A stretch of 64,000 nt of DNA from positions 248,001 to 312,000 of the forward strand of contig JAXHLS010000002.1 of the NCBI GenBank assembly GCA_034522055.1, read 5' to 3'. The stretch comes from Gammaproteobacteria bacterium. GTDB taxonomy: Bacteria > Pseudomonadota > Gammaproteobacteria > JAABTG01. Numbering within the stretch: the stretch's first letter is position 1; each line of letters begins with the position of its first letter. The notes under the pieces are model-generated. The model ran no database searches. It saw only the letters and a program-made list of their open reading frames with translations, and was not told the origin of the DNA. Both the position numbers and the translations under genes were made by a program. This document shows positions 21,583 through 63,198 of this stretch, piece by piece.

Positions 21583-21764
21583 GTAGGTCGGGATTCATCC
21601 CGACATTAAACCCTGCCGCTCATGCCACAGGCCGGGCCGGAACCCTCCGCCAGGGTTCGGTGTCGGGCTGAAGCCCGACCTACAGCCCGACCTACAGCCC
21701 GACCTACACAACACCCCCCACCGCCCATTCATTCGGCACGAATGTAGGTCGGGATTCATCCCGA
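21583..21764. repeat. cluster of GTAGGTCGGG-type palindromes
   Basis: Three groups of short palindromes (GTCGGGATTCATCCCGAC and GTCGGGCTGAAGCCCGAC, several followed by CTACA) lie in this gap; the middle one is extended by direct repeats of AGCCCGACCTAC. The same words recur at 28709, 40417-40978, 55178-55340 and 59676. No gene is visible here. Confidence 0.85.
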
Positions 21765-21850
21765 CAATCAAACAGGTTCCTTGGCGTTCTCGGCGTTCTT
21801 GGCGAGAGGAAATTCTCCTCTGCTACGCCCACGGACTCTGCGGGCGAGCT

Positions 21851-28894: not shown

Positions 28895-29335
28895 CTACCA
28901 GCTCTTGTAGGGCAGGAACTTGCCGTTCAGGGTGACCACCACCCGGTCCCCGGCGGGGTTTTCCTGTTTCTGGATATCCATGCTGAAGTCGATGGCGCTC
29001 ATGATGCCGTCGCCGAACTTCTCGTGGATGATCTCCTTGATGGTGTCGCCGTAGACGCCCACCATCTCGTAGAGCCGGTAGACGACCGGATCCGTGGGCA
29101 CGAGCTTGTCCCAGCTCTTGTGGGGAAACTCCTGCAACGCCGCAGCCACCTCGGGACCGAGACCGAGGGCGCCGGCCACGCCCTCGGCCGGTCCGGCCTG
29201 CAGGCTGTTCATGCCCAGACAGGCCGAGCAGGTGAACTCGGGGGCCAGCCCCGCCGCGGTCCCCAGGGCCTCCCAGGTGGTGCCCTTGGCCTTCTTGGCC
29301 TCCAGGATGGCATCGCGCATCTCGTCTTTGGTCAT
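28895..29335 (-). CDS. cynS: cyanate hydratase (cyanase)
   Basis: 146 aa from ATG 29335 (MTKDEMRDAILEAKKAKGTT). It converts cyanate and bicarbonate to ammonia and CO2. N-terminal helical domain about 1-75. The catalytic domain has Arg87 and Glu90 in VVYRLYEMVGVYGDT and Ser113 in GIMSAIDFSMD, matching E. coli Arg96, Glu99 and Ser122 in spacing. HEKFGDGIMSAI and LNGKFLPYK are family hallmarks. Transcribed alone, divergent from the SQR-like gene; no cynT or cynR adjacent. Confidence 0.97.
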   Translation of the reverse strand: MTKDEMRDAILEAKKAKGTTWEALGTAAGLAPEFTCSACLGMNSLQAGPAEGVAGALGLGPEVAAALQEFPHKSWDKLVPTDPVVYRLYEMVGVYGDTIKEIIHEKFGDGIMSAIDFSMDIQKQENPAGDRVVVTLNGKFLPYKSW

Positions 29336-29544
29336 GATTCGATCTCCACACGTATTCAATTGGAATGAAAAGCACCCGGGAATATACAAACTTCATGCCA
29401 TGACCCCCCCCGCCCACCACCAGCGCCGCAGCTTGCGCGCCGTGGTCGGGAATGACCCCGCAGACGGGGCCTGACCGGGGCGGTGGCAGCCTCTATAATC
29501 TGCGCCAAACGATCACGGCGAGCCGCACCGCCCCGCATGGCGCG

Positions 29545-29658: not shown

Positions 29659-30801
29659 ATGGCCAAGACCCTCATCATCGGCTCCGGATTCGCCGGTTGC
29701 ACCGCGGTCCGCACCCTGCGCAAGCAGGGCTATGGAGATGACATCACCGTACTCTCTCCGGCACCGGAACTGTTCTACTACCCCAGCCTCATCTGGGTGC
29801 CGGCCGGCGAGCGCACCGAGGCCGATCTGCGCATCGATGTGCGCAGCTTTTTCGCCCGCCACGGCGTGGAGCACGTGGCAGGCACCCTCACCGGCCTCGA
29901 TGCCGCCACGCGCACGGCGCGCACCGAGAACGACGAGTTCAGCTACGATTACCTCATCGTGGCCAGCGGCGGGCGTTACCTGCGCAAGCTGCCGGGCATC
30001 GAGCACGCCCATATCGCGTGCGCCGGCTGGGGCCCCACGAAGGCCTTCAGCGACCGCCTGGCGGAGCTGGACGGCGGCGCCCTGGCCTTCGGCTTCGCCG
30101 GCAACCCCAAGGAGCCCTCTGCCATGCGCGGCGGCCCGGTGTTCGAGTTCATGTTCGGCACCGACACCCTGCTGCGCCGCCAGGGCCGGCGCGAGCGTTT
30201 CAGTCTCACCTTCTTCAGTCCCGCCGAACGACCCGGCCAGCGCATGGGCGACAAGGCGGTGGACCGGCTGCTGGCGCAGATGGCGAGGCGTGACATCGCC
30301 ACCCACCTCGGCCACAAGCCCCAGCGCCTGGAGGCGGACCGGGTGGTCACCGAAGGCGGGGAGGTGCCTGCCGACCTGATCCTGTTCATCCCCGGCATGA
30401 CGGGCCCCGACTGGGCCGCCGGCAGCGGCCTGCCCCTGTCCGCAGGCGGCTTCATCCAGGCCGACGCCCAGTGCCGGGTAGCGGACACCCAAGGCGTATG
30501 GGTGGCAGGCGATGCCGGCAGCTTCCCCGGTCCCGAGTGGCGGCCCAAGCAGGCCCACATGGCGGACCTTCAGGCCGAGACCGCGGCCAAGAACCTGATG
30601 GCCCACATCCAGGGCAAGCCCCAGGATCACACCTTCCGTACCGAACTCATCTGCCTGGTGGATACCCTCGACGCCGGCTCGGTGGTATACCGTGACCCCA
30701 AGCGCAGCATGATGCTTGGCGCGGGAGCGCCCGTGCACTGGATGAAGCAGGCCTTCGAATGGCACTACCTGCGACCCTACCGGCGTCAGGCGAGGACCTG
30801 A
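29659..30801 (+). CDS. sulfide:quinone oxidoreductase-like FAD-dependent oxidoreductase
   Basis: 380 aa from ATG 29659 with GGGAGG upstream. N-terminal FAD Rossmann motif TLIIGSGFAGCTAVRTLRK. FYYPSLIWVPAGERTEADL and YDYLIVASGGRYLRKLPGIEHAH are typical of the SQR/flavocytochrome-c sulfide dehydrogenase group, and the second FAD motif is VWVAGDAGSFPGPEWRPKQAHMADLQAE. Cysteines occur in HIACAGWG, ADAQCRV and TELICLVD; which pair would form the redox disulfide is not certain. No signal peptide, so cytoplasmic face of the membrane. It could oxidise sulfide to quinone or be a related NADH/thiol oxidoreductase. Confidence 0.85.
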   Translation: MAKTLIIGSGFAGCTAVRTLRKQGYGDDITVLSPAPELFYYPSLIWVPAGERTEADLRIDVRSFFARHGVEHVAGTLTGLDAATRTARTENDEFSYDYLIVASGGRYLRKLPGIEHAHIACAGWGPTKAFSDRLAELDGGALAFGFAGNPKEPSAMRGGPVFEFMFGTDTLLRRQGRRERFSLTFFSPAERPGQRMGDKAVDRLLAQMARRDIATHLGHKPQRLEADRVVTEGGEVPADLILFIPGMTGPDWAAGSGLPLSAGGFIQADAQCRVADTQGVWVAGDAGSFPGPEWRPKQAHMADLQAETAAKNLMAHIQGKPQDHTFRTELICLVDTLDAGSVVYRDPKRSMMLGAGAPVHWMKQAFEWHYLRPYRRQART

Positions 30802-30857
30802 CCCGTGGATCACGGCGGCGTTGCGACGGCCGCGCTCAGCGAGGAGACACGAGCCCC

Positions 30858-31331
30858 ATGGAACGCATGACCATTTCCCTGGACGACGAACTGGTGGATC
30901 AGTTCGAGCAGTTTCTCGTCACCCGGGGTTACCGCAACCGCTCCGAGGCCATTCGCGACCTCATCCGCGAGCGCCTGGAGGCGGAGCGCATGAAGGCCCC
31001 CGACGGCGGCCACTGCATCGGCACCCTGAGCTACGTCTACAATCACCACGAGCGCATGCTGGCCAGCCGCCTCACCGAGGCCCAGCACCGCCACCACGAC
31101 CTGGCCGTCTCTACCCTCCATGTCCATCTCGACCACGACAACTGCCTCGAAACCGTCGTGCTCCGCGGCCCCACCCGGACGGTGGAGGAGTTCGCCAACT
31201 CCGTGATCTCCCAGCCCGGGGTGCGCCACGGCCGGCTCTATGTGGTACCGGTGGAGATCCGGCAGGACGCCCATGCCCACGATGACACCGGCACGGGCCA
31301 TTCCCATACCCACACCCAGCCCATCACGTGA
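30858..31331 (+). CDS. nikR: nickel-responsive regulator NikR
   Basis: 157 aa from ATG 30858. Ribbon-helix-helix DNA-binding domain at 1-45 (MERMTISLDDELVDQFEQFL, NRSEAIRDLIRERL). The ACT-like metal domain contains STLHVHLDHDNCLETVVLRG, giving the two His and one Cys of the square-planar nickel site, and GVRHGRLYVVP. The C-terminal tail is His-rich (DAHAHDDTGTGHSHTHTQ), unusual for NikR. The gene overlaps the ATPase gene in GTGA, so it controls or is co-regulated with that transporter component. Confidence 0.95.
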   Translation: MERMTISLDDELVDQFEQFLVTRGYRNRSEAIRDLIRERLEAERMKAPDGGHCIGTLSYVYNHHERMLASRLTEAQHRHHDLAVSTLHVHLDHDNCLETVVLRGPTRTVEEFANSVISQPGVRHGRLYVVPVEIRQDAHAHDDTGTGHSHTHTQPIT

Positions 31332-32149
31332 GCGCCAGCAGCGCCGGCCACCATCACGGACATGGCCCGCCGCCGGTGGCGGATGGACCGCCCCTGATCG
31401 CCCTCGAAGACGTCACCTTCCGTTACCCGGACCGCCCCGTGCTGGCGGCGGTGGACTTCCACATCCACGCCGGCGAGCGGGTGGCCGTGGTGGGCCCCAA
31501 CGGCAGCGGCAAATCCACCCTGCTCCAGCTCATGGTGGGACTGCACCGGCCCCAGGCGGGCCACATCACCGCCTTCGGCCGGCCCTGCCGCACGGAGCAG
31601 GAATTCCGCGCTATGCGCCGCCGGGTGGGCCTGCTGTTCCAGGATTCCGACGACCAGCTGTTCTGCCCCACGGTGGAGGAAGATGTGGCCTTCGGCCCCC
31701 TCAATCTGGGGCTCGACTCCGCGACCGCCCTGGCACGGGCTCACGCCACCCTGGGAACCCTGGGTCTGGACACCCTCGCCGGGCGCGTCACCCATCGCCT
31801 GTCCGGAGGCGAGAAACGCCTGGTGGCCCTGGCCGCGGTGCTCGCCATGGAGCCCGAGGTGCTGCTGCTGGACGAGCCCACCAACGGCCTGGATACCGCC
31901 ACCGAGGAGCGCCTGACGGCCCATCTGGAGTCCCTGCCCCAGGCCATGGTCTTCGTCTCGCACGACAACCGCCTGCTGGCCCGCATGGTGACGCGGGCGG
32001 TGCTGCTCCACGAAGGCCGACTCCACGCGGCCACCATGCACAGCCACCCCCACACCCATGCCCATCTCCACATCCACGCCCCCGGTGTCCCCGCCGACCA
32101 TCGCCACGGTGCACCGCCCCATTCCCACCCTCACGAGGCGAAAGGCTGA
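31328..32149 (+). CDS. CbiO/NikO-type ECF ABC ATPase with His-rich ends
   Basis: 273 aa from GTG 31328 (GTGA overlap with nikR). Walker A VGPNGSGKSTLLQLM, Q-loop LLFQDSDDQLFCPTVEEDVA (the SDDQLF string is typical of ECF Co/Ni ATPases), signature LSGGEKRLVALAAVL, Walker B VLLLDEPTNGLD. The N-terminus has GHHHGHG; the last 40 residues carry about ten His. It should energise nickel uptake, but no CbiM/CbiQ-type membrane genes adjoin it here. Confidence 0.93.
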   Translation: MSASSAGHHHGHGPPPVADGPPLIALEDVTFRYPDRPVLAAVDFHIHAGERVAVVGPNGSGKSTLLQLMVGLHRPQAGHITAFGRPCRTEQEFRAMRRRVGLLFQDSDDQLFCPTVEEDVAFGPLNLGLDSATALARAHATLGTLGLDTLAGRVTHRLSGGEKRLVALAAVLAMEPEVLLLDEPTNGLDTATEERLTAHLESLPQAMVFVSHDNRLLARMVTRAVLLHEGRLHAATMHSHPHTHAHLHIHAPGVPADHRHGAPPHSHPHEAKG

Positions 32150-35236: not shown

Positions 35237-35587
35237 ATGGTCCACAGCAAACCCGTTGCACACCCCTCCCGTGATCGCCGGCCGCGCCAATCCGACGTGG
35301 CGCTGGTGGTGGTGGGCGGCCTCGCCATCGCCGTGGCCGCGACCCTGGCCGGCGGCGCCCTGTTTACCGAGCAGGCCGCCGCGCGCATGGCTCGCAACCA
35401 GGCCCTGGTGGCGGCCCTCGAACTCACGGATCTGTGCCTATTCACCGAGGCCCGCTATACCCGCCACCTGACCCAGGCGGATCTCCACACCCCGTTCCAG
35501 GACGCCCCCTACTCCCTGGACCATTTTCCCTCCGGCTCCGTCGTGGGGCCGCCACCCGGGATCACCGCCCATGTCCGTATGGATTGA
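35237..35587 (+). CDS. single-pass membrane protein, first gene of the NosL-type operon
   Basis: 116 aa. One transmembrane helix (about 20-43, VALVVVGGLAIAVAATLAGG) then a periplasmic-side region with AALELTDLCLFTEARYTRHL and DLHTPFQDAPYSLDHFPSG, ending in a 17-bp overlap with the permease gene. The LCLFTEARYTRH and HTPFQD...HFPSGS strings look like a conserved membrane family I have no name for. The single Cys and several His could bind metal. Operon partner of the ABC system. Confidence 0.82.
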   Translation: MVHSKPVAHPSRDRRPRQSDVALVVVGGLAIAVAATLAGGALFTEQAAARMARNQALVAALELTDLCLFTEARYTRHLTQADLHTPFQDAPYSLDHFPSGSVVGPPPGITAHVRMD

Positions 35588-36704
35588 GCGCCAGCGCTAC
35601 CTCATGGACTACACCCTGGCGGCCATGGGGCGGCGTTGGGCACGCAATCTCGGGCTGGTGGCGGTATACACCCTGCTGGTGTTCGTGCTGGCCTCGGTGA
35701 TGATGTTCACCGATGCCATCCAGCGCGAGGCGGGTCTCCTGCTGGAGCAGGCCCCGGAGGTGGTGGTGCAGCGCATGGTGGCGGGGCGCCACGACCTCAT
35801 TTCCGCCGCCTACATGGCGGACATCGAGGCCATTCGCGGCGCCCGCCAGGCGCGGGGGCGGCTGTGGGGCTACCACTTCGATCCCGTCACCGCCGCCAAC
35901 TATACGTTCATGGTTCCCGCCGCCGATGCCCCGCCCGCCGGCGCGGTGGACATCGGCAGCGGCTTGGCGCGGGCCCGGGGCGCGGCGCCCGGCGACGTAT
36001 TGTCTTTCCGCGGCCACGACGGCGGCCTGTTCACCTTCGAGGTGCGGCGCCTGCTGACGCCGGAGTCGGAGATCATCACCGCCGACGCCATCCTGGTCTC
36101 GGAAGCGGACTTCCGCGCCTTCTTCGGCATCCGGCGCGGGCTGTTCACGGACATCTCCCTGCGGGTGCGCAACCCGCGGGAGGTGACCAAGGTGGCCGAG
36201 AAGATCGTGGAACGCTTCCCGGATACCCGCCCCATCCTGCGCTCTGAGATGCAGCGCACCTACGCCTCCCTGTTCGACTGGCGCCAGGGTCTGGTGCTGG
36301 CGGTGTTCTCCGGGGCCCTGCTGGCCTTCGCCATCCTGGCCTGGGACAAGGCCTCGGGCCTGTCCGCCGAGGAACGCCGCGAAATAGGGATCCTCAAGGC
36401 GGTGGGTTGGGAAACCGCCGACATCATCGCCATGAAGACCTGGGAAGGGGCCCTGGTGTCCGTGACCGCCTTCCTGCTGGGGGTGCTGCTGGCCTATGGC
36501 CATGTCTTCGGCGCCTCCGCCGTCATGTTCGAGCCAGTGCTGAAGGGCTGGGCCACCCTTTACCCGCGTTTCACCCTGACGCCCCGCGTCGATCTGTTCC
36601 AACTCGCGGTACTGCTGTTCCTCACCGTGGTGCCCTATACCGCGGCCACGGTGGTGCCCAACTGGAAGACCGCGGTCACCGATCCCGACGCCGTGATGCG
36701 CTGA
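35571..36704 (+). CDS. FtsX-type ABC permease
   Basis: 377 aa. N-terminal helix at about 27-47 (NLGLVAVYTLLVFVLASVMM), a periplasmic domain about 50-235, and three C-terminal helices about 240-370. The coupling region is EERREIGILKAVGWETADIIAMKTWEG, the usual FtsX cytoplasmic loop. It pairs with the ATPase 6 bp downstream. In this operon it more likely moves or powers a protein or cofactor step outside the membrane than imports a small solute. Confidence 0.92.
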   Translation: MSVWIERQRYLMDYTLAAMGRRWARNLGLVAVYTLLVFVLASVMMFTDAIQREAGLLLEQAPEVVVQRMVAGRHDLISAAYMADIEAIRGARQARGRLWGYHFDPVTAANYTFMVPAADAPPAGAVDIGSGLARARGAAPGDVLSFRGHDGGLFTFEVRRLLTPESEIITADAILVSEADFRAFFGIRRGLFTDISLRVRNPREVTKVAEKIVERFPDTRPILRSEMQRTYASLFDWRQGLVLAVFSGALLAFAILAWDKASGLSAEERREIGILKAVGWETADIIAMKTWEGALVSVTAFLLGVLLAYGHVFGASAVMFEPVLKGWATLYPRFTLTPRVDLFQLAVLLFLTVVPYTAATVVPNWKTAVTDPDAVMR

Positions 36705-36710
36705 GGCGCC

Positions 36711-37388
36711 ATGATAGAACTTCGCCAGGTCAGCAAGGTCTTCAATGAAGGCAGGCACAACGAGTTCACCGCCATTCGCGACGTGTCCCTGGAGGTGGCC
36801 GCCCGCCAGGTCACTGTGTTCACCGGGCCCAGCGGCTCGGGCAAGACCACCCTGCTCACCCTGGTCGGCTGCCTGGCGCGACCCACTTCGGGGCGTGTCC
36901 GCCTCGAGGGCCGCGACATCTCGGGTCTGCCGGAACGCTTCCTGACGGAGGTGAGACGCCACAGCTTCGGCTTCGTATTTCAGCACTTCAATCTCATCAG
37001 CGGTCTGTCGGCGCTGGAGAATGTCATGCTGCCCGCCTATCCGCTGGGCCCGCCGCGCCGCGGGCTGGTGACCCGGGCCCTGGAACTGCTGGAGCTGATG
37101 GCCCTGTCGGAACGGGCGGAGGCGCCGGTGGAGTGGCTGTCGGGCGGCGAGAAACAGCGGGTGGCCATCGCCCGCGCCCTCATCAACGACCCGCCGGTGC
37201 TCATCGCGGACGAGCCGACGGCCAACCTGGACACGGCCATGTCGCGGGACTTTCTGGCCATCCTGGAGGTACTCGTGGACCAGGGCAAGACGATTCTCAT
37301 GACCAGCCATGACCCCCTGGTGTACGAGGCCGCCCTGGTGGATACGGTGATCGCCCTGCGGGACGGGCGCGTGGAGGCCGGGGCGTGA
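36711..37388 (+). CDS. LolD/MacB-type ABC ATPase
   Basis: 225 aa, complete: Walker A GPSGSGKTTLLTLVG, Q-loop FQHFNLISGLSALENVMLP, signature LSGGEKQRVAIARAL, Walker B LIADEPTANLD, H-loop TSHD. Belongs to the FtsE/LolD/MacB branch and should drive the preceding FtsX permease. It overlaps the next gene in GTGA. Confidence 0.95.
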   Translation: MIELRQVSKVFNEGRHNEFTAIRDVSLEVAARQVTVFTGPSGSGKTTLLTLVGCLARPTSGRVRLEGRDISGLPERFLTEVRRHSFGFVFQHFNLISGLSALENVMLPAYPLGPPRRGLVTRALELLELMALSERAEAPVEWLSGGEKQRVAIARALINDPPVLIADEPTANLDTAMSRDFLAILEVLVDQGKTILMTSHDPLVYEAALVDTVIALRDGRVEAGA

Positions 37389-38386
37389 TTTTCCAGCCGG
37401 CCATCATCGCCCTGGTGCTGGCGGACTTGGTGGGCCTGGTGTTCCTCGCCATGGCTTCCCTGTTTGCGGTGCGGCTGCTGCGCCATTGGGAACCGGCCAG
37501 CGGCAGCGCCCTGCAGCTGCGGCTGGAGCGCCGCACCTATTTGATGTCCACCCTGGTCACCTTCGTGCTGCTGACCCAACTGGGTGCCCTGCTGTTGTTC
37601 GTGCTCAACGCCGAGCGCATGGCGCCCCTGTTCGTGGGCGCCATGTGCGCGGTGGGCACCCTCAACGCCAACGATTTCGGCTTTCCCAGCCTCAACCTGC
37701 GTATCCTGCTGTTCTTTATGGCCGCCGTGTGGCTGATCATGAACCGCCTTGACAACCGCGCCCCGGACTACCCCCTAGTGCGGGTCAAGTACGCGCTGCT
37801 GCTGGTGGTGGCGCCACTGGCCGCCGTCACCGCCGGGCTGCAGCTCGCCTATTTCCTCAACCTGGAGGCGGATGTCATCACCTCCTGTTGCGGCACCCTG
37901 TTCAGCAGCGACCGCGACGCCGTGGCCGGCGACCTCACGGGCCTGGCGCCCGGGCCCACCATGGCGGCCTTCTACGCCGTCCTGGGCCTCACGGTAGCGG
38001 CCGGCCTGCTGTCCCGGCGCACGCGCTGGCTGCAGCGACTGTTCCTGGTACTGGCGCCGGTGGCCTTCGTGACTGCGATCCTGGCGGTGATCTCCTTCAT
38101 ATCCCTCTATGTCTATGAACACCCCCATCACCACTGCCCCTTCTGCATGCTGCAGGCGGAGTACGGTTTCGTGGGCTACGGGCTCTACATCCCCCTGTTC
38201 CTGGCCACCGCCCTGGCCCTGGGCCACGGCGTGACGCGCCTGTTCGCCCGCACCGCCTCCATGCGGGCCATCGTGGATACCGCGGGCCGGCGCCTCGACA
38301 CCATGGCCACCTTCCTGTTCGCGCTGTTTCTGGTGGCCGTCACCTGGCTCATCGCCAGTTCCAACCTCATACTCCTGGGAGGCTGA
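37385..38386 (+). CDS. polytopic membrane protein with HHHCPFC motif
   Basis: 333 aa from GTG 37385 (GTGA overlap). About eight to nine hydrophobic helices. Loop motifs stand out: ITSCCGTLFSS near 162-172 and EHPHHHCPFCMLQAEYGF near 241-258, both suited to metal or disulfide chemistry. I recognise the HHHCPFC-L-EY pattern as recurring but know no assigned function. It lies between the ABC ATPase and a TlpA-type thioredoxin, so it may accept reductant or metal across the membrane. Confidence 0.85.
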   Translation: MIFQPAIIALVLADLVGLVFLAMASLFAVRLLRHWEPASGSALQLRLERRTYLMSTLVTFVLLTQLGALLLFVLNAERMAPLFVGAMCAVGTLNANDFGFPSLNLRILLFFMAAVWLIMNRLDNRAPDYPLVRVKYALLLVVAPLAAVTAGLQLAYFLNLEADVITSCCGTLFSSDRDAVAGDLTGLAPGPTMAAFYAVLGLTVAAGLLSRRTRWLQRLFLVLAPVAFVTAILAVISFISLYVYEHPHHHCPFCMLQAEYGFVGYGLYIPLFLATALALGHGVTRLFARTASMRAIVDTAGRRLDTMATFLFALFLVAVTWLIASSNLILLGG

Positions 38387-38387
38387 C

Positions 38388-38882
38388 ATGCCCCTGCCCC
38401 GCCCCATGCCCTGGCTCCTGCTGTCCCTCGCCCTGACTCTGCCCGGCTGCGAGCAGGGCCAGCGCCTGGCCCAGGGCGACCCCGCACCGCCCTTCGAACT
38501 GGTGGATCTGCAGGGCGAGCGGCGCGCATTCCCCGAGGATTTCGCCGGCACCCCCGTGGTGCTCCGTTTCTGGGCCGACTGGTGCCGCTTCTGCAGACAA
38601 GAGATGCAGGATGTGGAGGCCGTCTACCAGGGCTACCGGGATCGCGTCGCCATCCTCGCCGTCAACGTCGGCCAGGACCACGACACCGCCCATGACTTCG
38701 TCACCGCCATCGACATCAGCTATGACACCCTGCTGGACCGGAAATCCGAGGTGGCCGGCGCCTACGGCGTGGTGGGCCTGCCCACCACCTTCTTCGTGGA
38801 CCGCGACGGCCGCATCCGCGCCAAGATCCTGGGGGAGGCGGACAGGGAGACCTTCGAGCGCATGCTGGTGGAGACCCTGTGA
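38388..38882 (+). CDS. TlpA-like thioredoxin-fold lipoprotein
   Basis: 164 aa. Lipoprotein signal with LALTLPGC (Cys17). Thioredoxin fold with FWADWCRFCRQEMQDVE, active site Cys-Arg-Phe-Cys, and the cis-Pro loop VVGLPTTFFVDRDG. A periplasmic, membrane-anchored thiol oxidoreductase of the TlpA/ResA type that could keep cysteines of the neighbouring metal-binding proteins reduced. Starts 1 bp after the previous stop and overlaps the next gene in GTGA. Confidence 0.93.
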   Translation: MPLPRPMPWLLLSLALTLPGCEQGQRLAQGDPAPPFELVDLQGERRAFPEDFAGTPVVLRFWADWCRFCRQEMQDVEAVYQGYRDRVAILAVNVGQDHDTAHDFVTAIDISYDTLLDRKSEVAGAYGVVGLPTTFFVDRDGRIRAKILGEADRETFERMLVETL

Positions 38883-39082
38883 GGGACGCCGCCCCCAAGG
38901 CACTCCGGGCCTGCGAGCTGTGCGGCCTCACCGTGTACGAGGACCGCCACCTGCTGCGTAGCGCCGGCCACCTGCTTCACTTCTGTTGTCCCGGCTGTCG
39001 TCAGGCCTACGTGATCTCACGCGCGGTCCACGACGCGGAATTCCCCGCCGCCACGACTACATCCGGGTACCGGAATCCGTGA
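38879..39082 (+). CDS. 67-aa zinc-ribbon-like metal-binding protein
   Basis: 67 aa from GTG 38879. CELCGLTVYEDRH and HFCCPGCRQAYVISRAV give a CxxC...CCxxC set, resembling the N-terminal metal-binding domain of CcoI/CtpA-type copper P-ATPases (FCCPGC-VY), here as a separate mini protein. No signal peptide. Coupled on both sides by GTGA overlaps, so clearly part of the operon. Confidence 0.85.
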   Translation: MRDAAPKALRACELCGLTVYEDRHLLRSAGHLLHFCCPGCRQAYVISRAVHDAEFPAATTTSGYRNP

Positions 39083-39774
39083 GCCCCGAACTCAATTACG
39101 CCGCCGCCTTCATGGCGGGGATCCTGGGCAGCGGCCACTGTATCGGCATGTGCGGCAGCCTGGTGTCGGCTTTCTTCATGAGCGTCAACAAGGACGTGGA
39201 GAACAGGAGCGTGCTGCCCTACGTGGCCTACCACGGCGCCCGGGTGGGGGTATACACCCTGGTGGGTGCCCTGGCGGCGCTGCTGGGTCTCGCCCTCACC
39301 TCCACCGGCATCATCGGCAAGACCCAGGGGATCCTGCAGATCGTGGCGGGCGTGGTGGTCATCCTCATCGGCCTCGAGGTGCTGGGGGTGAGCCGCCTGC
39401 GCTTCGCCGTCAGCTTCCTGCCGGCACGGCTGGTGCGTAGCGGCTTCAGTGCGGCCATGAAACGGGGGCCGGTGGTGGGCTCCATGATGGGTGGCACCCT
39501 CAACGGCTTCATGCCCTGCGCCCTGACCCTGGCCATCGCCGTCAAGGCCACCACCGCCGCCAGCGCCCTCGAGGGCGCCCTGCTGATGGCGGCCTTCGGC
39601 GCCGGTACCCTGCCCTCCATGATGTTCGTGAGCGTGCTGTTCGGCCGTATGGGGGCGAAGTTCCGCGGCGGCCTGATGAAGGCCGCCGCCTTGATCGTCA
39701 TCGCCATGGGCGTGGCCACCGTCTACCAGGGTGTGCGCTACACCATGGTGATGAAGGACCTGGCCAACTGGTGA
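39079..39774 (+). CDS. SafE/DsbD-like membrane transporter
   Basis: 231 aa from GTG 39079 (GTGA overlap). Six or so helices with the family motif GSGHCIGMCGSLVSAFF near 16-32 and a matching GFMPCALTLAIAV near 142-154: the HCxGMCG and MPCAL pair of the SafE/UreH-like branch related to DsbD transmembrane domains. Members often sit beside copper P-ATPases and cytochrome oxidase assembly genes. Could move metal or thiol reducing power. Confidence 0.9.
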   Translation: MSPELNYAAAFMAGILGSGHCIGMCGSLVSAFFMSVNKDVENRSVLPYVAYHGARVGVYTLVGALAALLGLALTSTGIIGKTQGILQIVAGVVVILIGLEVLGVSRLRFAVSFLPARLVRSGFSAAMKRGPVVGSMMGGTLNGFMPCALTLAIAVKATTAASALEGALLMAAFGAGTLPSMMFVSVLFGRMGAKFRGGLMKAAALIVIAMGVATVYQGVRYTMVMKDLANW

Positions 39775-40295
39775 GGCTAATGGCAGCCCGCGCCCTTGCC
39801 ATCCTCATGACCCTGGCCCTGCTGGCGGGACCCGCCCTGGCGGGCCCCGTAGACGTCCCGCAGCCGGGCCCGCGGGCCAGCTGCCCGGTGTGCGGCATGT
39901 TCGTCGCCAGGTATCCCGAGTGGGTCGCCACCGTGATCTTCAAGGACGGTCATGTGCATCACTTCGATGGCGCCAAGGACCTGTTCAAGTTCCTCTTCGC
40001 CCTGGACAAGTACGCGCCGGGCCACCGCCCCGGGGACATCGACATCATCGCCGTCACCGATTACTACGATCTGGAGACCATCGATGCCCGCGAGGCCTGG
40101 TTCGTCATCGGCTCCGACGTCTACGGGCCAATGGGCCACGAACTGGTACCCCTGAAGACGGCCAAGGACGCCGCCGGCTTCAGCGCCGATCACGACGGCC
40201 GGGCCACCCTGCGCTTCGACGACATCACGCCGACCCTGATACGGCACGTGGACGAGGGCCGGTTCGACGACCCGAAGGCGCCCGCCAAACCCTGA
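39771..40295 (+). CDS. NosL-family copper-binding protein
   Basis: 174 aa from GTG 39771 (GTGA overlap), with an ATG three codons later. Signal peptide ALAILMTLALLAGPALAG. NosL core: SCPVCGMFVARYPEWVATV with Cys38, Cys41 and Met43, then FKDGHVHHFDGAKDLFKF. NosL binds Cu(I) and serves nitrous-oxide reductase assembly, but no nosZ or nosDFY lies here, so this is a NosL paralogue delivering metal to another target. It lacks an obvious lipobox. Last gene of the operon. Confidence 0.92.
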   Translation: MRLMAARALAILMTLALLAGPALAGPVDVPQPGPRASCPVCGMFVARYPEWVATVIFKDGHVHHFDGAKDLFKFLFALDKYAPGHRPGDIDIIAVTDYYDLETIDAREAWFVIGSDVYGPMGHELVPLKTAKDAAGFSADHDGRATLRFDDITPTLIRHVDEGRFDDPKAPAKP

Positions 40296-40416
40296 ACCGT
40301 CCGTGTCGGGATCCATGCCGGCATCCAACCCGGACTTTACAACCAGGAAACACGCGAAAGGCAGGAAAAAGCAAAAGTGCAAACCACGAAAGACACGAAA
40401 CATACGAAATAAGGCT

Positions 40417-40978
40417 GTAGATCGGGCTTCAGCCCGACAGCCCGCGGCCGGTTCCACCCCGGCCCAGGGCACATACGGCAGGGTTGAATGTCGGGATGAA
40501 TCCCGACCTACATCCGTGCCTCAGGAACAAACGGGGGTGGTGTTCTTGTAGGTTGGGCTTCAGCCCCACAGCCCGCGGCCGGTTCCACTCCGGCCCAGGG
40601 CACATACGGCAGGGTTGAATGTCGGGATGAATCCCGACCTACATCCGTGCCTCAGGAACAAACGGGGGTGGTGTTCTTGTAGGTTGGGCTTCAGCCCGAC
40701 AGCCCGCGGCCGGTTCCACCCCGGCCCGAGGCATATACGGCAGGGTTGAATGTCGGGATGAATCCCGAATCTACATCCGTGCCTCAGGAACAAACGGGGG
40801 TGGTGTTCTTGTAGGTTGGGCTTCAGCCCGACAGCCCGCGGCCGGTTCCACCCCGGCCCGAGGCATATACGGCAGGGTTGAATGTCGGGATGAATCCCGA
40901 TCTACATCCGTGCCTCAGGAACAAACGGGGGTGGTGTTCTTGTAGGTTGGGCTTCAGCCCGACAGCCCGGGGCGACGA
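40417..40978. repeat. tandem array of 131-132-bp units (four full, one partial)
   Basis: Units begin with GTAG(A/G)T(C/T)GGGCTTCAGCC at 40417, 40548, 40679, 40811 and 40942 (partial). Each has one GTCGGGCTTCAGCCCGAC-type palindrome and one GTCGGGATGAATCCCGAC palindrome separated by CAGCCCGCGGCCGGTTCCAC. Units differ by a few bases; the third has one extra base. With 40296-40416 this fills the gap after the NosL operon. Open frames inside are repeat artefacts. Confidence 0.95.
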
Positions 40979-61584: not shown

Positions 61585-62838
61585 TCACAACAGGCCCTCG
61601 GAACGCAGGGCGCGACCCACTGCCGCCCGCAGGCGGGCCAGGTCCCGCTCCGGCTCGATGGCCGCCATGGGGTGAAGGGTACGGCTGATGGCCAGGGAAA
61701 CGTCGTTGTAGAGGGGGGTGCGGGGGCGCTGCACGGCATCCTCCAGGGTGGCACGCAACAGGTCAGCGAAGGGAAAAACCGCCCTCACCACGGGTTCGTC
61801 GTAGAGGGCGGCGATGGTGGGCGGCAGCCCGCCGCGGGCCGCTGCCAGGCGCTGGTTGTCGGCGGCGGCGATGCATGCGGCGGCCTCGAAGGCCAGTTCC
61901 GGGTGACGGGTGTGGGCCCCCACCCCCAGATTGATACCCCCCAGGGTTACCCGGCTGGGGCGCCCCGGCACCACCGCCGGCCAGCGCGCCCAGCCCATAT
62001 TCTCGGCCACCGCCGGGGCATGGGCCCGGGCGCTCGGCCAGACATAAGTGTAGTTGACCATGAAGGTGGCGATGCCCGCCTCGAAGGCGCGCCGCCCGTG
62101 GTCCTCCCGGGCATTGGCCAGGCCCGGGGGTGCCGCGGGCGAGGTGGCCAGCCGGCGCATGGTGTCGAGGGCGGTGAGGGTGGGTCCCCGCTCCAGGGAT
62201 ACCGCCTCGCCGTCCGGCGTCAATACCGACCCGCCGGCGGAGGCCAGCAGGGCGGTGAAGAACACCGTGAAGCCCTCGTAGCGCTCCCCCTGGACCTGGA
62301 TGGCACCGGGGGTACCGAGGGCCTCGGCCAAGTCCAGCATCTCACCCCAGGTCGCCGGCGCCTCCTCCACGCGGTCGCGGCGATACCACAGCAACTGGGT
62401 GTTGGTGGTGAAGGGCGCTGCCCACAGACGTCCATCGTACCCGGCGCTCTGAAGGGGGGCCGCCAACCGCCCCCGGCGGATGGCGTCGGCCTGGTCCTGC
62501 GGCCACGGCAGCAGCCAGCCTGCGGCGGCGAATTCCGGCGTCCAGATGACGTCCATGCCCATGAGATCGATGGCCTCGTCCCCCGCCGCCAGGCGCCGCA
62601 CCAGTTGCTCGCGTTGCTGGGAGGCGTCCGTGGGCAGGGGCGCGATGACCACCTCGTAGGCCCCGCCGGCGGCCTCGGTGCAGTGCCGCGCCGCCTCCTC
62701 GAAGGCCCCGGAAGGCTCGTCGAAGACGTACCAGTGGAGGGTGGGCGCCTTGTCGGTCGACTCGGCGCAGGCGGCGAGCAGCAGTGCCCCGGCGAGGGTC
62801 GTGGGGATCGCTAAGAGATGGCGGATGACGGACGGCAA
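61585..62838 (-). CDS. sugar ABC transporter substrate-binding lipoprotein
   Basis: 417 aa from TTG 62838, the only start that gives a proper N-terminal lipoprotein signal (LPSVIRHLLAIPTTLAGALL, then LAAC). Family 1 extracellular binding-protein features: DLMGMDVIWTPEFAAAGWLLP, GYDGRLWAAPFTTNTQLLWY, MVNYTYVWP, LGGINLGVGAHTRHPELAFE. An open frame continues upstream through the minisatellite but would bury the signal peptide, so it is rejected. No ribosome site is visible because the start abuts the repeat array. Confidence 0.9.
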   Translation of the reverse strand: MPSVIRHLLAIPTTLAGALLLAACAESTDKAPTLHWYVFDEPSGAFEEAARHCTEAAGGAYEVVIAPLPTDASQQREQLVRRLAAGDEAIDLMGMDVIWTPEFAAAGWLLPWPQDQADAIRRGRLAAPLQSAGYDGRLWAAPFTTNTQLLWYRRDRVEEAPATWGEMLDLAEALGTPGAIQVQGERYEGFTVFFTALLASAGGSVLTPDGEAVSLERGPTLTALDTMRRLATSPAAPPGLANAREDHGRRAFEAGIATFMVNYTYVWPSARAHAPAVAENMGWARWPAVVPGRPSRVTLGGINLGVGAHTRHPELAFEAAACIAAADNQRLAAARGGLPPTIAALYDEPVVRAVFPFADLLRATLEDAVQRPRTPLYNDVSLAISRTLHPMAAIEPERDLARLRAAVGRALRSEGLL

Positions 62839-62961
62839 TGGTGAATGGTGAATGGTGAATGGTGAATGGTGAATGGTGAATGGTGAATGGTGAATGGTGA
62901 ATGGTGAATGGTGAATGGTGAATGGTGAATGGTGAATGGTGAATGGTGAATGGTGAATGGT
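62837..62961. repeat. 7-bp minisatellite, 17 full copies plus 6 bases
   Basis: Unit AATGGTG on the plus strand (CACCATT on the minus), uninterrupted from 62837 to 62961. Its last unit overlaps the TTG start of the binding-protein gene. Because 7 is not a multiple of 3, unit loss or gain would shift any frame or promoter spacing crossing it. 62962-63198 holds no recognisable gene. Confidence 0.97.
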
Positions 62962-63198
62962 CTGCAGCAAAACCCGGGGCGCGGGGATCGTCAAGGTCTG
63001 GAGCGCGATCACTCCCCGGGGAGGCTCAGTGCCACAGGTCGCTAATGCGCCAGCGGGGCGGGGTCTCCCTGGGCGGTCGAGGTAAACTTCGTACTCCCGC
63101 CTGCATGACAGGGCCAACCGGGCAGGGAGTGGGACCGATTGAGCCCGCCAGGGCACCGCCATCACTGACGGTCCATGCCACCGCCCTTGGGCTTCGGA

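Follow-up and report, generated by a model that had tools for sequence, protein, structure and literature searches.

Nitrous oxide (N2O) is a greenhouse gas that is destroyed by nitrous-oxide reductase; this enzyme is, as far as known, the main biological N2O sink, and its copper assembly constitutes a bottleneck. Thiol reduction during CuA assembly is the task of the TlpA-Sco branch. In the NosDFY and NosL system, according to one account, an inner-membrane ABC pair works together with a Cu(I) chaperone (PMC7558416). Here we describe a conserved operon of a Gammaproteobacteria bacterium whose products probably supply copper to extracytoplasmic respiratory enzymes. It occupies positions 35237-40295 of the window, the whole 64,000-nt stretch of DNA that was analysed (positions 248,001-312,000 of contig JAXHLS010000002.1, assembly GCA_034522055.1). 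Like NosDFY and NosL, the operon combines a NosL protein with an inner-membrane ABC pair, and some of its relatives directly adjoin nos genes. In contrast, its ABC pair is of the FtsX/LolD type and not NosFY, NosD is absent from the operon and the genome is devoid of a recognisable nosZ. We know of no counterpart in the NosDFY and NosL system of two of its proteins, here termed PM and 'a'.

Further parallels exist to CcoGHIS/CopA2-type cbb3 copper delivery with Sco and PCuAC, as many relatives of the operon encode a P-ATPase with an HMA domain, Sco and a DsbD_2/SafE protein. However, CcoG, CcoH and CcoS were not seen in the operon, the window copy of which also lacks P-ATPase and Sco, and no cco genes were recognised among the typed flank genes, a subset of the flank. 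The TlpA-Sco branch is matched by a TlpA-like lipoprotein with a CxxC motif and by Sco in 30/80 loci, but here TlpA is tied to NosL and the ABC core, and its score remains below the cut-off of the equivalog NF047696. LolCDE, MacB and FtsEX, all type VII ABC systems, share the permease fold and a LolD/FtsE-like ATPase with the operon, which differs from them by scores under the equivalog cut-offs, by the additional PM and 'a' proteins and by its copper-chaperone context. On balance, we favour, if cautiously, an ABC-driven Cu(I) maturation module whose clients are respiratory cuproenzymes, namely NosZ if present and otherwise another enzyme. The NosL, Sco and P-ATPase neighbours point to copper rather than other metals as the putative cargo. 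Among the matches listed from open-licence PMC literature, no title or abstract start describes the operon.

All eight open reading frames were confirmed on the + strand, as the preliminary description had stated, and its claim that most genes are coupled by overlaps is true of five of the seven junctions. The genes for 'a' (35237..35587), the FtsX/LolC-type ABC permease (35571..36704), the LolD/FtsE-type ABC ATPase (36711..37388) and PM (37385..38386) form a tight four-gene core, with a 17-bp overlap between 'a' and FtsX, a 6-bp gap between FtsX and the ATPase and a 4-bp overlap between the ATPase and PM. After a 1-bp gap follows the TlpA gene (38388..38882); the junctions TlpA/TRASH, TRASH/SafE and SafE/NosL are 4-bp overlaps each. 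No sigma-70 promoter-like site was detected in the operon region, and its terminator-like sites (4 versus 2.9 expected) are all intragenic. The 64-kb window contains no Rfam family above the gathering score and no tRNA.

The first core protein, 'a', is small and anchored, with a single N-terminal hydrophobic stretch discerned by eye. In neither Pfam nor NCBIfam did it reach the cut-off of any family, and it was found at 70/80 PM loci. Its conserved C-terminal motif EARYxRH....DxH..FQDHP....HFP includes E71, R73, R76, H77 and D82, kept in 71/71 aligned rows, and H90 and H96, kept in 69/71. The permease matches FtsX PF02687 in Pfam with 27.2 bits (cut-off 25.5), and its AlphaFold model (pLDDT 85.5, pTM 0.76) retrieved LolCDE (E 1.6e-14) and MacB (E 1.2e-11) as best Foldseek hits. 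The predicted fold is thus of the LolCDE/MacB type, and by this model the permease belongs to the type VII ABC transporters. For the ATPase (ABC_tran, 106.9 bits), the top NCBIfam models are FtsE, MacB, DevA and LolD, every one under its own cut-off. The LolCDE equivalogs were missed, with 25.6 versus 362.45 bits for lolCE (TIGR02212) and 172.9 versus 307.75 bits for LolD.

PM likewise passes no family cut-off in Pfam or NCBIfam. PM and 'a' are central in the operon, which moreover contains a permease with a LolCDE/MacB-like predicted fold; in this respect the earlier suggestion of an undescribed system is supported. The AlphaFold model of PM (pLDDT 86.1, pTM 0.86) displays eight helices. In the alignment A2, C88, C168, C169, H249, H250, C251 and C254 are invariant in 63/63 rows, and in the model these seven residues all map to loops 2, 4 and 6 on the same side of the membrane; the loops are presumably periplasmic. 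PM matched no PDB sequence up to E 10 and no plasmid of the collection searched. Because Foldseek yielded no match at E 0.001 or better (best E 0.86) and the best VIA-align hits (Z up to 11.9) are largely unrelated helical bundles, we claim no structural relative. A tandem duplication of helices 1-4 and 5-8 was considered and is unsupported (hhalign probability 0.6%, E 0.095).

The invariant CxxC and paired Cys in the PM loops, together with the TlpA and DsbD_2 neighbours, might also be read as a periplasmic thiol-redox module, in which PM, with its CPFC, CCG and C88, would act as a thiol oxidoreductase akin to DsbB/VKOR and be linked with TlpA and the DsbD_2 protein, the copper chaperones being no more than its substrates. 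The invariant HH adjoining the CxxC, however, equally fits metal binding, and DsbB and VKOR have about four helices, compared with eight in the PM model. Neither protein appears among the sequence and fold matches shown for PM, none of the fold matches being significant. As such a module would also leave the ABC pair, the two NosL proteins and the P-ATPase unexplained, we regard it as distinctly unlikely.

The remaining four gene products resemble known families to different degrees. The TlpA/ResA-like thioredoxin-fold lipoprotein (AhpC-TSA in Pfam, 88.1 bits) carries an LPGC lipobox, identified by eye, and a WCRFC active site; C66 and C69 are kept in 67/67 rows, and with NF047696, the TlpA equivalog, it reaches 44.7 bits (cut-off 230). 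The 67-aa protein encoded at 38879..39082 had been likened to the CcoI metal-binding domain, an assignment that we revise: the CcoI-type N-terminal domain PF12156 reaches 17.6 bits versus a cut-off of 27, and the protein passes the Pfam cut-off only with TRASH PF24273 (28.7 versus 27 bits). C12, C15, C36, C37 and C40 of this TRASH protein are kept in 26/26 rows, and no signal peptide was seen. The SafE-like DsbD_2 membrane protein (39079..39774; HCxGMCG and MPC motifs) matches PF13386 with 137.4 bits (cut-off 24.9), and H20, C21, M24 and C25 are conserved in 45/45 rows and C147 in 43/43. NosL (39771..40295) matches PF05573 with 108.8 bits (cut-off 24). A study of NosL (PMC6530538) describes a CXM/CXXCXM Cu(I) motif and a second conserved Met, with CXXCXM for clade II NosL. 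The window NosL carries both the CXXCXM motif (C38, C41 and M43, kept in 40/40 rows) and the second Met (M121, in 38/38). Its signal peptide was read as ...LALLAGPALAGPVD, with no Cys before C38, so that no lipobox Cys as in canonical NosL was seen. Its PDB sequence matches comprise NosL chains, including 7og7 (E 5.4e-12), 7osf (E 4.1e-6) and the further entries up to 7osj, which like 7osf are titled 'Copper-binding lipoprotein NosL'.

A pattern scan with tblastn confirmation identified 385 PM relatives, and the best 80 of these 385 loci were read. Genes were counted if they lay on the same strand and exceeded a score floor, using the 43/80 fetched loci that offer enough flank; the loci are partly non-independent, as L078 and L080 differ at 2/11,035 bases and several others are closely related. 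In these 43 loci, the core is nearly constant (a 40, FtsX 42, ABC 43, PM 43), and the accessory genes are frequent (TlpA 33, SafE 28, NosL 30, second NosL 32, TRASH 18). TlpA, SafE, NosL and the second NosL are the usual followers of the core, to which Sco (19/43) and a P-ATPase (18/43) are added at many loci; the recurrence of the operon genes exceeds chance. One member of each was scanned, identifying Sco as SCO1-SenC (142.6 bits) and an HMA domain in the P-ATPase. NosL or the second NosL accompanies the core in 33/43 loci, and neither is within reach in the other 10. Four of the 43 loci (L034, L035, L071 and L076) harbour FtsX-ABC-PM without NosL, second NosL or TlpA. Taken with LolCDE and MacB as the best folds of the permease, these loci would suit a LolCDE/MacB-like exporter of a lipoprotein or small metal-binding molecule, with NosL and the others as separate passengers of the operon. 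Given the company of NosL or the second NosL and of TlpA in 33/43 loci each, and a lolCE score far below its cut-off, we consider such an exporter very unlikely.

Gene position and co-occurrence link the module family to nitrous oxide respiration. A Thauera genome has the module with nosY on one side and nosL on the other, and at 7/80 loci nos genes are found no more than about 10 kb away. L073 has the order nosD-G-H-F-Y-a-FtsX-ABC-PM-TlpA-NosL2-NosL and L053 the order nosR-Z-D-F-Y-L-x-a-FtsX-ABC-PM-NosL2-NosL, the labels NosG, NosH, NosF and NosY being our own reading of the sequences. One family was surveyed across 150 genomes: clade II nosZ occurs in 17/23 genomes with PM versus 26/127 without (p 1.1e-6), and any nosZ in 20/23 versus 69/127 (p 0.005), all p values being computed without correction for phylogeny. 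Exclusion of the fragment-only genomes G128 and G171 left 16 genomes with PM and 25 without PM that encode clade II nosZ (p 4.6e-6). Clade II nosZ is also common without PM, as the 26 PM-less genomes illustrate.

In the window genome (98.16% complete), by contrast, no recognisable nosZ was found, which supports the preliminary description, and no NosZ client of the kind served by canonical NosL was recognised. TIGR04244 matched once (E 7e-4), in a CuA-like frame of 165 aa adjoining a COX1 gene, L-NosZ NF052460 gave nothing above cut-off, and PF18764 matched neither this genome nor its controls. Neither nosZ nor nosDFY is present among the operon genes and the two typed neighbours, and none was recognised by eye in the list of window reading frames. 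Overall, 26/74 PM genomes lack a recognisable NosZ, and 23 of these 26 keep NosL. The majority of the genomes are drafts for which no completeness is given, which makes gene absences in them weak; among the NosZ-less ones, it is stated for G001, G003, G004, G072 and the window genome G000 (94-100%). A lactonase-type NosZ as hidden client was rejected: a scan of 28 genomes, the 26 NosZ-less ones and the positive controls G131 and G132 (E about 1e-42), gave no hit above cut-off in the former. Propeller-only partial matches occur, for example in the window genome (E 5.5e-23, model positions 132-270).

A dedicated maturation accessory of NosZ (mostly clade II), left over in the window genome after loss of nosZ, would account for the position of the module inside or beside nos clusters, its co-occurrence with clade II nosZ and the CXXCXM-type NosL among its members. 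The 26 genomes without recognisable NosZ, the five of stated completeness included, argue against it, as do the intact operon genes, conserved with dN/dS of 0.09-0.33 between the window genome and a same-genus relative; both lack a recognisable nosZ, and a recent loss in both is a residual possibility. We judge this explanation unlikely. The earlier proposal of a client other than nitrous-oxide reductase stands in part: this genome has conserved operon genes and no recognisable NosZ, but the relatives in or beside nos clusters, the 20/23 module genomes of one family with nosZ and the NosL motif show that the module is not wholly apart from the reductase.

For the maturation module that we favour, the client in nosZ-less genomes is most plausibly a haem-copper oxidase. 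ccoN is present in 69/74 PM genomes, but also in 145/150 family members regardless of PM; this near-universal occurrence is uninformative and does not single out cbb3. The oxidase clusters of the window genome carry, by eye, their own Sco- and CcoI-like genes, so an extra copper route is not obviously needed.

In the mechanism that we propose, the operon products would form a module for Cu(I) delivery and maturation that is located in the inner membrane and the periplasm. Its core would be a type VII (LolCDE/MacB-like) pair of FtsX and ATPase, partnered by PM and the anchored 'a', with the five Cys and two His of PM clustered on the outward-facing side of the membrane. Driven by ATP, the periplasmic domain of FtsX may move and so open or close this site. 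Through it, Cu(I) would pass between the NosL chaperones and a source in the membrane, namely SafE/DsbD_2, joined in many relatives by the P-ATPase with its heavy-metal domain. TlpA, supplied through the DsbD_2 protein, would maintain the reduced thiols of chaperones and clients. NosZ (mostly clade II) would be the client where encoded, and an enzyme such as a haem-copper oxidase elsewhere. Delivery would be powered by the ATPase; we infer this role of ATP, the direction of transfer and the identity of the clients. More tentatively, the operon might represent an undescribed metallocentre maturation machine, in which the ATP-moved FtsX domain gates the PM copper site to load NosL-type chaperones. 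Such a machine would have evolved together with the clusters for nitrous-oxide reductase (mostly clade II) or been recruited into them, and in nosZ-less bacteria its clients would be other respiratory copper enzymes.

With a conserved ABC core that some denitrifiers carry within their nos clusters, and with two unnamed families, the module would amount to a missing factor of nitrous-oxide reductase assembly, and NosL in nosZ-less genomes would end the reading of NosL as proof of N2O reduction. Many of the nosZ-less bearers of the module are titled as sulfur- or iron-oxidiser groups.

The eight open reading frames of the operon occupy one strand at window 35237-40295 (+), as the preliminary description had placed them; its statement that most are coupled by overlaps holds for five of the seven junctions (17, 4, 4, 4 and 4 bp), and at the remaining two the genes stand 6 and 1 bp apart. 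Six of the genes could be named by family scans: an FtsX permease, a LolD/FtsE-like ATPase, a TlpA/ResA-like lipoprotein, a TRASH-domain mini protein, a DsbD_2 (SafE-like) protein and NosL, for which the NosL chains of PDB entries 7osf-7osj were among the matches in a PDB sequence search. The first gene product, a small anchored protein (35237..35587 (+), hereafter 'a'), and the fourth, an eight-helix membrane protein (37385..38386 (+), hereafter PM), matched no family above cut-off in Pfam or NCBIfam. A tandem array follows nosL directly (window 40416-40973; 131-bp unit, 4.3 copies, 96% matches). Words similar to its translation also occur at window 21595-21771 and at L014:1195-1356, a further locus of the same genome, and therefore the array may be a dispersed genomic repeat.

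Across 63 aligned PM sequences, C88, C168, C169, H249, H250, C251 and C254 are invariant. The AlphaFold model (pLDDT 86.1, pTM 0.86; below 50 in the stretch 171-178, just past the Cys pair) consists of eight long helices, and all seven invariant residues sit in the loops following helices 2, 4 and 6. As these loops carry few positive charges, compared with the more Arg/Lys-rich alternate loops and helix ends, we infer that the Cys- and His-bearing side is periplasmic. PM yielded no PDB sequence match and, in a fold search with the model, no significant fold match; its VIA-align rows were mostly unrelated helical bundles. A two-fold repeat within PM was tested and found unsupported. The permease model (pLDDT 85.5, pTM 0.76) matches the folds of LolCDE (E 1.6e-14), MacB (1.2e-11) and HrtBA (2.7e-10), and with the LolC/E and LolD equivalog models the ABC pair scores far below cut-off. 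In 'a', E71, R73, R76, H77 and D82 do not vary in 71 rows, and H90 and H96 are present in 69 of them.

Scanning 84,980 genomes, one per species, with two short PM motifs and tblastn confirmation returned 385 PM-encoding stretches. The best 80 of these 385, on which all gene-order figures rest, carry titles that name, among others, many Rhodocyclaceae with their relatives (Thauera, Azoarcus, Dechloromonas, Sulfuritalea), Gallionellaceae, Thioalkalivibrio, Competibacteraceae and marine-invertebrate endosymbionts; around the window's genome (G000), 6 of 95 genomes, itself counted, encode PM. Forty-three loci are well flanked (2.6 kb or more ahead of the PM start and 7 kb or more beyond it), and own profiles with score floors, applied to the same strand, detect there a core of 'a' (40), FtsX (42), ABC (43) and PM (43), accompanied by TlpA (33), a second NosL (32), NosL (30), SafE (28), Sco and a 72-aa protein (19 each) and, in 18 loci each, TRASH, a 121-aa protein, an HMA-like protein and a P-ATPase. 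The corresponding counts for all 80 loci, incomplete ones included, are 70 for 'a', 76 for FtsX, 78 for ABC, 63 for TlpA, 45 each for SafE and NosL, 46 for the second NosL, 30 for Sco, 29 for the P-ATPase and 33 for TRASH; the loci are interdependent, L078 and L080 showing 2 differences in 11,035 bases. The fullest order, e.g. in L042 and L078, is 72aa-Sco-a-FtsX-ABC-PM-TlpA-TRASH-121aa-HMA-P-ATPase-SafE-NosL2-NosL. Absent from the window operon, the second NosL sits between SafE and NosL in L015, which appears to be the locus of the same-genus relative G001 and where it scores 45.1 bits to PF05573; its start reads by eye as twin-arginine-like. Four of the 43 loci (L034, L035, L071, L076) have FtsX-ABC-PM without NosL, second NosL or TlpA, so this core can stand alone. 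The tiny families of the long form, of about 72 and 121 aa (L016:7037-7255, L016:11681-12004 and relatives), have no Pfam match, and the 72-aa protein is very alike among four sequences compared. Several relatives (L074:1272-3207, L033, L075) have, upstream of the module, a histidine kinase (typed in L074) and an apparent response regulator, possibly for redox regulation.

Genes for nitrous-oxide reduction lie within about 10 kb of the module in 7 of the 80 loci (L051, L052, L053, L066, L071, L073, L085), with L074, matched by the cytochrome query alone, left out. By our estimate this is above chance, since a locus window spans 21 kb at most, less than 1% of a genome of 3-4 Mb. NosZ is of clade II in L052 and L071 (TIGR04246, about 900 bits) and of clade I in L053 (TIGR04244, 1052.8 bits). 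Locus L073 (Thauera sp. UBA6194) reads cyt c-cyt c-(336 aa)-nosD-G-H-F-Y-a-FtsX-ABC-PM-TlpA-NosL2-NosL, the module filling the slot that separates nosY from nosL; at L053, from Azoarcus taiwanensis NSC3, it comes after nosR-Z-D-F-Y-L, and in L051 the adjoining nos genes are on the opposite strand. Here nosZ and nosR (L053) were named by profile scan, nosD by a scan of L051 and tblastn, nosG, nosH and nosF by reading the sequences, and nosY as our reading of a permease without NCBIfam match. A radical SAM gene adjoins nosD and the module at L066:5575-6717 and L085:6463-7623; the L048 member of its cluster is NirJ (633.5 bits).

Among 150 genomes from the family of Sulfurisoma (G112), 23 encode PM. 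NosZ (E below 1e-20, whereby G150, with fragments at E 3.9e-8 only, counts as negative) occurs in 20 of the 23 versus 69 of the 127 without PM (Fisher p 0.005, kinship ignored). Clade II NosZ, recognised by TIGR04244 scores from about 100 to 410 bits as calibrated on three proteins, is present in 17/23 versus 26/127 (p 1.1e-6), or 16 versus 25 once G128 and G171, which have only fragments, are set aside (p 4.6e-6); clade I NosZ is present in 3/23 versus 45/127 (p 0.05), kinship being ignored throughout. Of the 50 genomes of L016-L065, 31 have NosZ at E below 1e-20 and 19 gave no such match; it is present in only one (G088, two copies) of the six PM genomes near and including G000, and in 15 of 18 additional PM genomes of the Sulfurisoma family, G145 and G278 having none and G150 fragments. 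Overall, 47 of 74 PM genomes have NosZ, one has fragments and 26 have none recognisable, nor any lactonase-type NosZ over cut-off; G000, G001, G003, G004 and G072 are 94-100% complete, and most others are drafts without a completeness figure. NosL is kept in 23 of these 26 (not in G101, G105 and G136). PMC6769254 reports NosL mostly in betaproteobacteria having N2O reductase, and the NosZ-less genomes with NosL are exceptions to that pairing.

In line with the preliminary description, profile searches with TIGR04244 and NF052460 detected no recognisable NosZ in the G000 assembly (5.14 Mb, 98.16% complete, seven contigs), of which the window is C2:248001-312000. TIGR04244 hit just one place (E 7e-4), a CuA-like frame of 165 aa that adjoins a COX1 gene, and the lactonase-type model NF052460 gave partial matches only, all below cut-off; one of them, at G000:C2:3103007-3103423 (-), is propeller-only (E 5.5e-23, model 132-270) and has no CuA part. 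PF18764 had zero matches in G000 and likewise in the controls. Between G000 and L015, dN/dS is 0.09 to 0.33 in all eight genes, which speaks for their being functional without NosZ. G000 has two NosL matches and G001 three; the other NosL of G000 (L014:7977-8927, G000:C2 about 3016000, (-)) carries a fused PCuAC copper chaperone domain (80 and 128.8 bits, respectively, for the two parts). About 1.2 kb from this fusion lies a convergent pair of histidine kinase and Fis-type response regulator genes (L014:4793-6789).

On the basis of these results, we read the operon as a probable copper chaperone operon built around an ABC core, of which we found no published description. Delivery to an exported enzyme other than nitrous-oxide reductase, as originally proposed, fits the NosZ-less window's genome, where the module is independent of nos, but not many denitrifiers, where it is tied to nos. 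The leading candidate for its client in G000 is a haem-copper oxidase. Six COX1-type matches are present there, including a cbb3 oxidase (ccoN 756.6 bits); as read by eye, one further cluster is aa3-type and one NorB-like, plus others. Matches to ccoN (E below 1e-80) occur in 69 of the 74 PM genomes, with none in G102, G105 and G107 and only weak ones in G110 and G128, and the sole COX1-type match in each of G098 and G104 is that to the cbb3 gene. As ccoN is found in 145 of the 150 Sulfurisoma-family genomes (147 counting weak matches) irrespective of PM, the cbb3 oxidase is a possible client but not singled out. In a structural study of the NosDFY-NosL complex, the ABC transporter reportedly takes copper from NosL. 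By analogy, FtsX-ABC might shift PM between loading and release states, with 'a' as a putative adaptor and TlpA and the DsbD_2 protein as the presumed reductant supply. Published work establishes Cu(I) binding by NosL and its role in CuZ assembly (PMC6530538), and that oxidases are served by CopA2/CcoI-type P-ATPases, Sco and PCuAC (PMC7558416).

Elsewhere in the window, a regulator resembling NikR and, after it, a CbiO-like ATPase of the ABC type (114.3 bits to ABC_tran) lie upstream of the operon (30759-32149), and a 164-aa ORF at 28895-29389 (-) resembles a cyanase. A short repeated TIHHSPF peptide run in an ORF at about 61585-63165 (-) is probably a simple DNA repeat.
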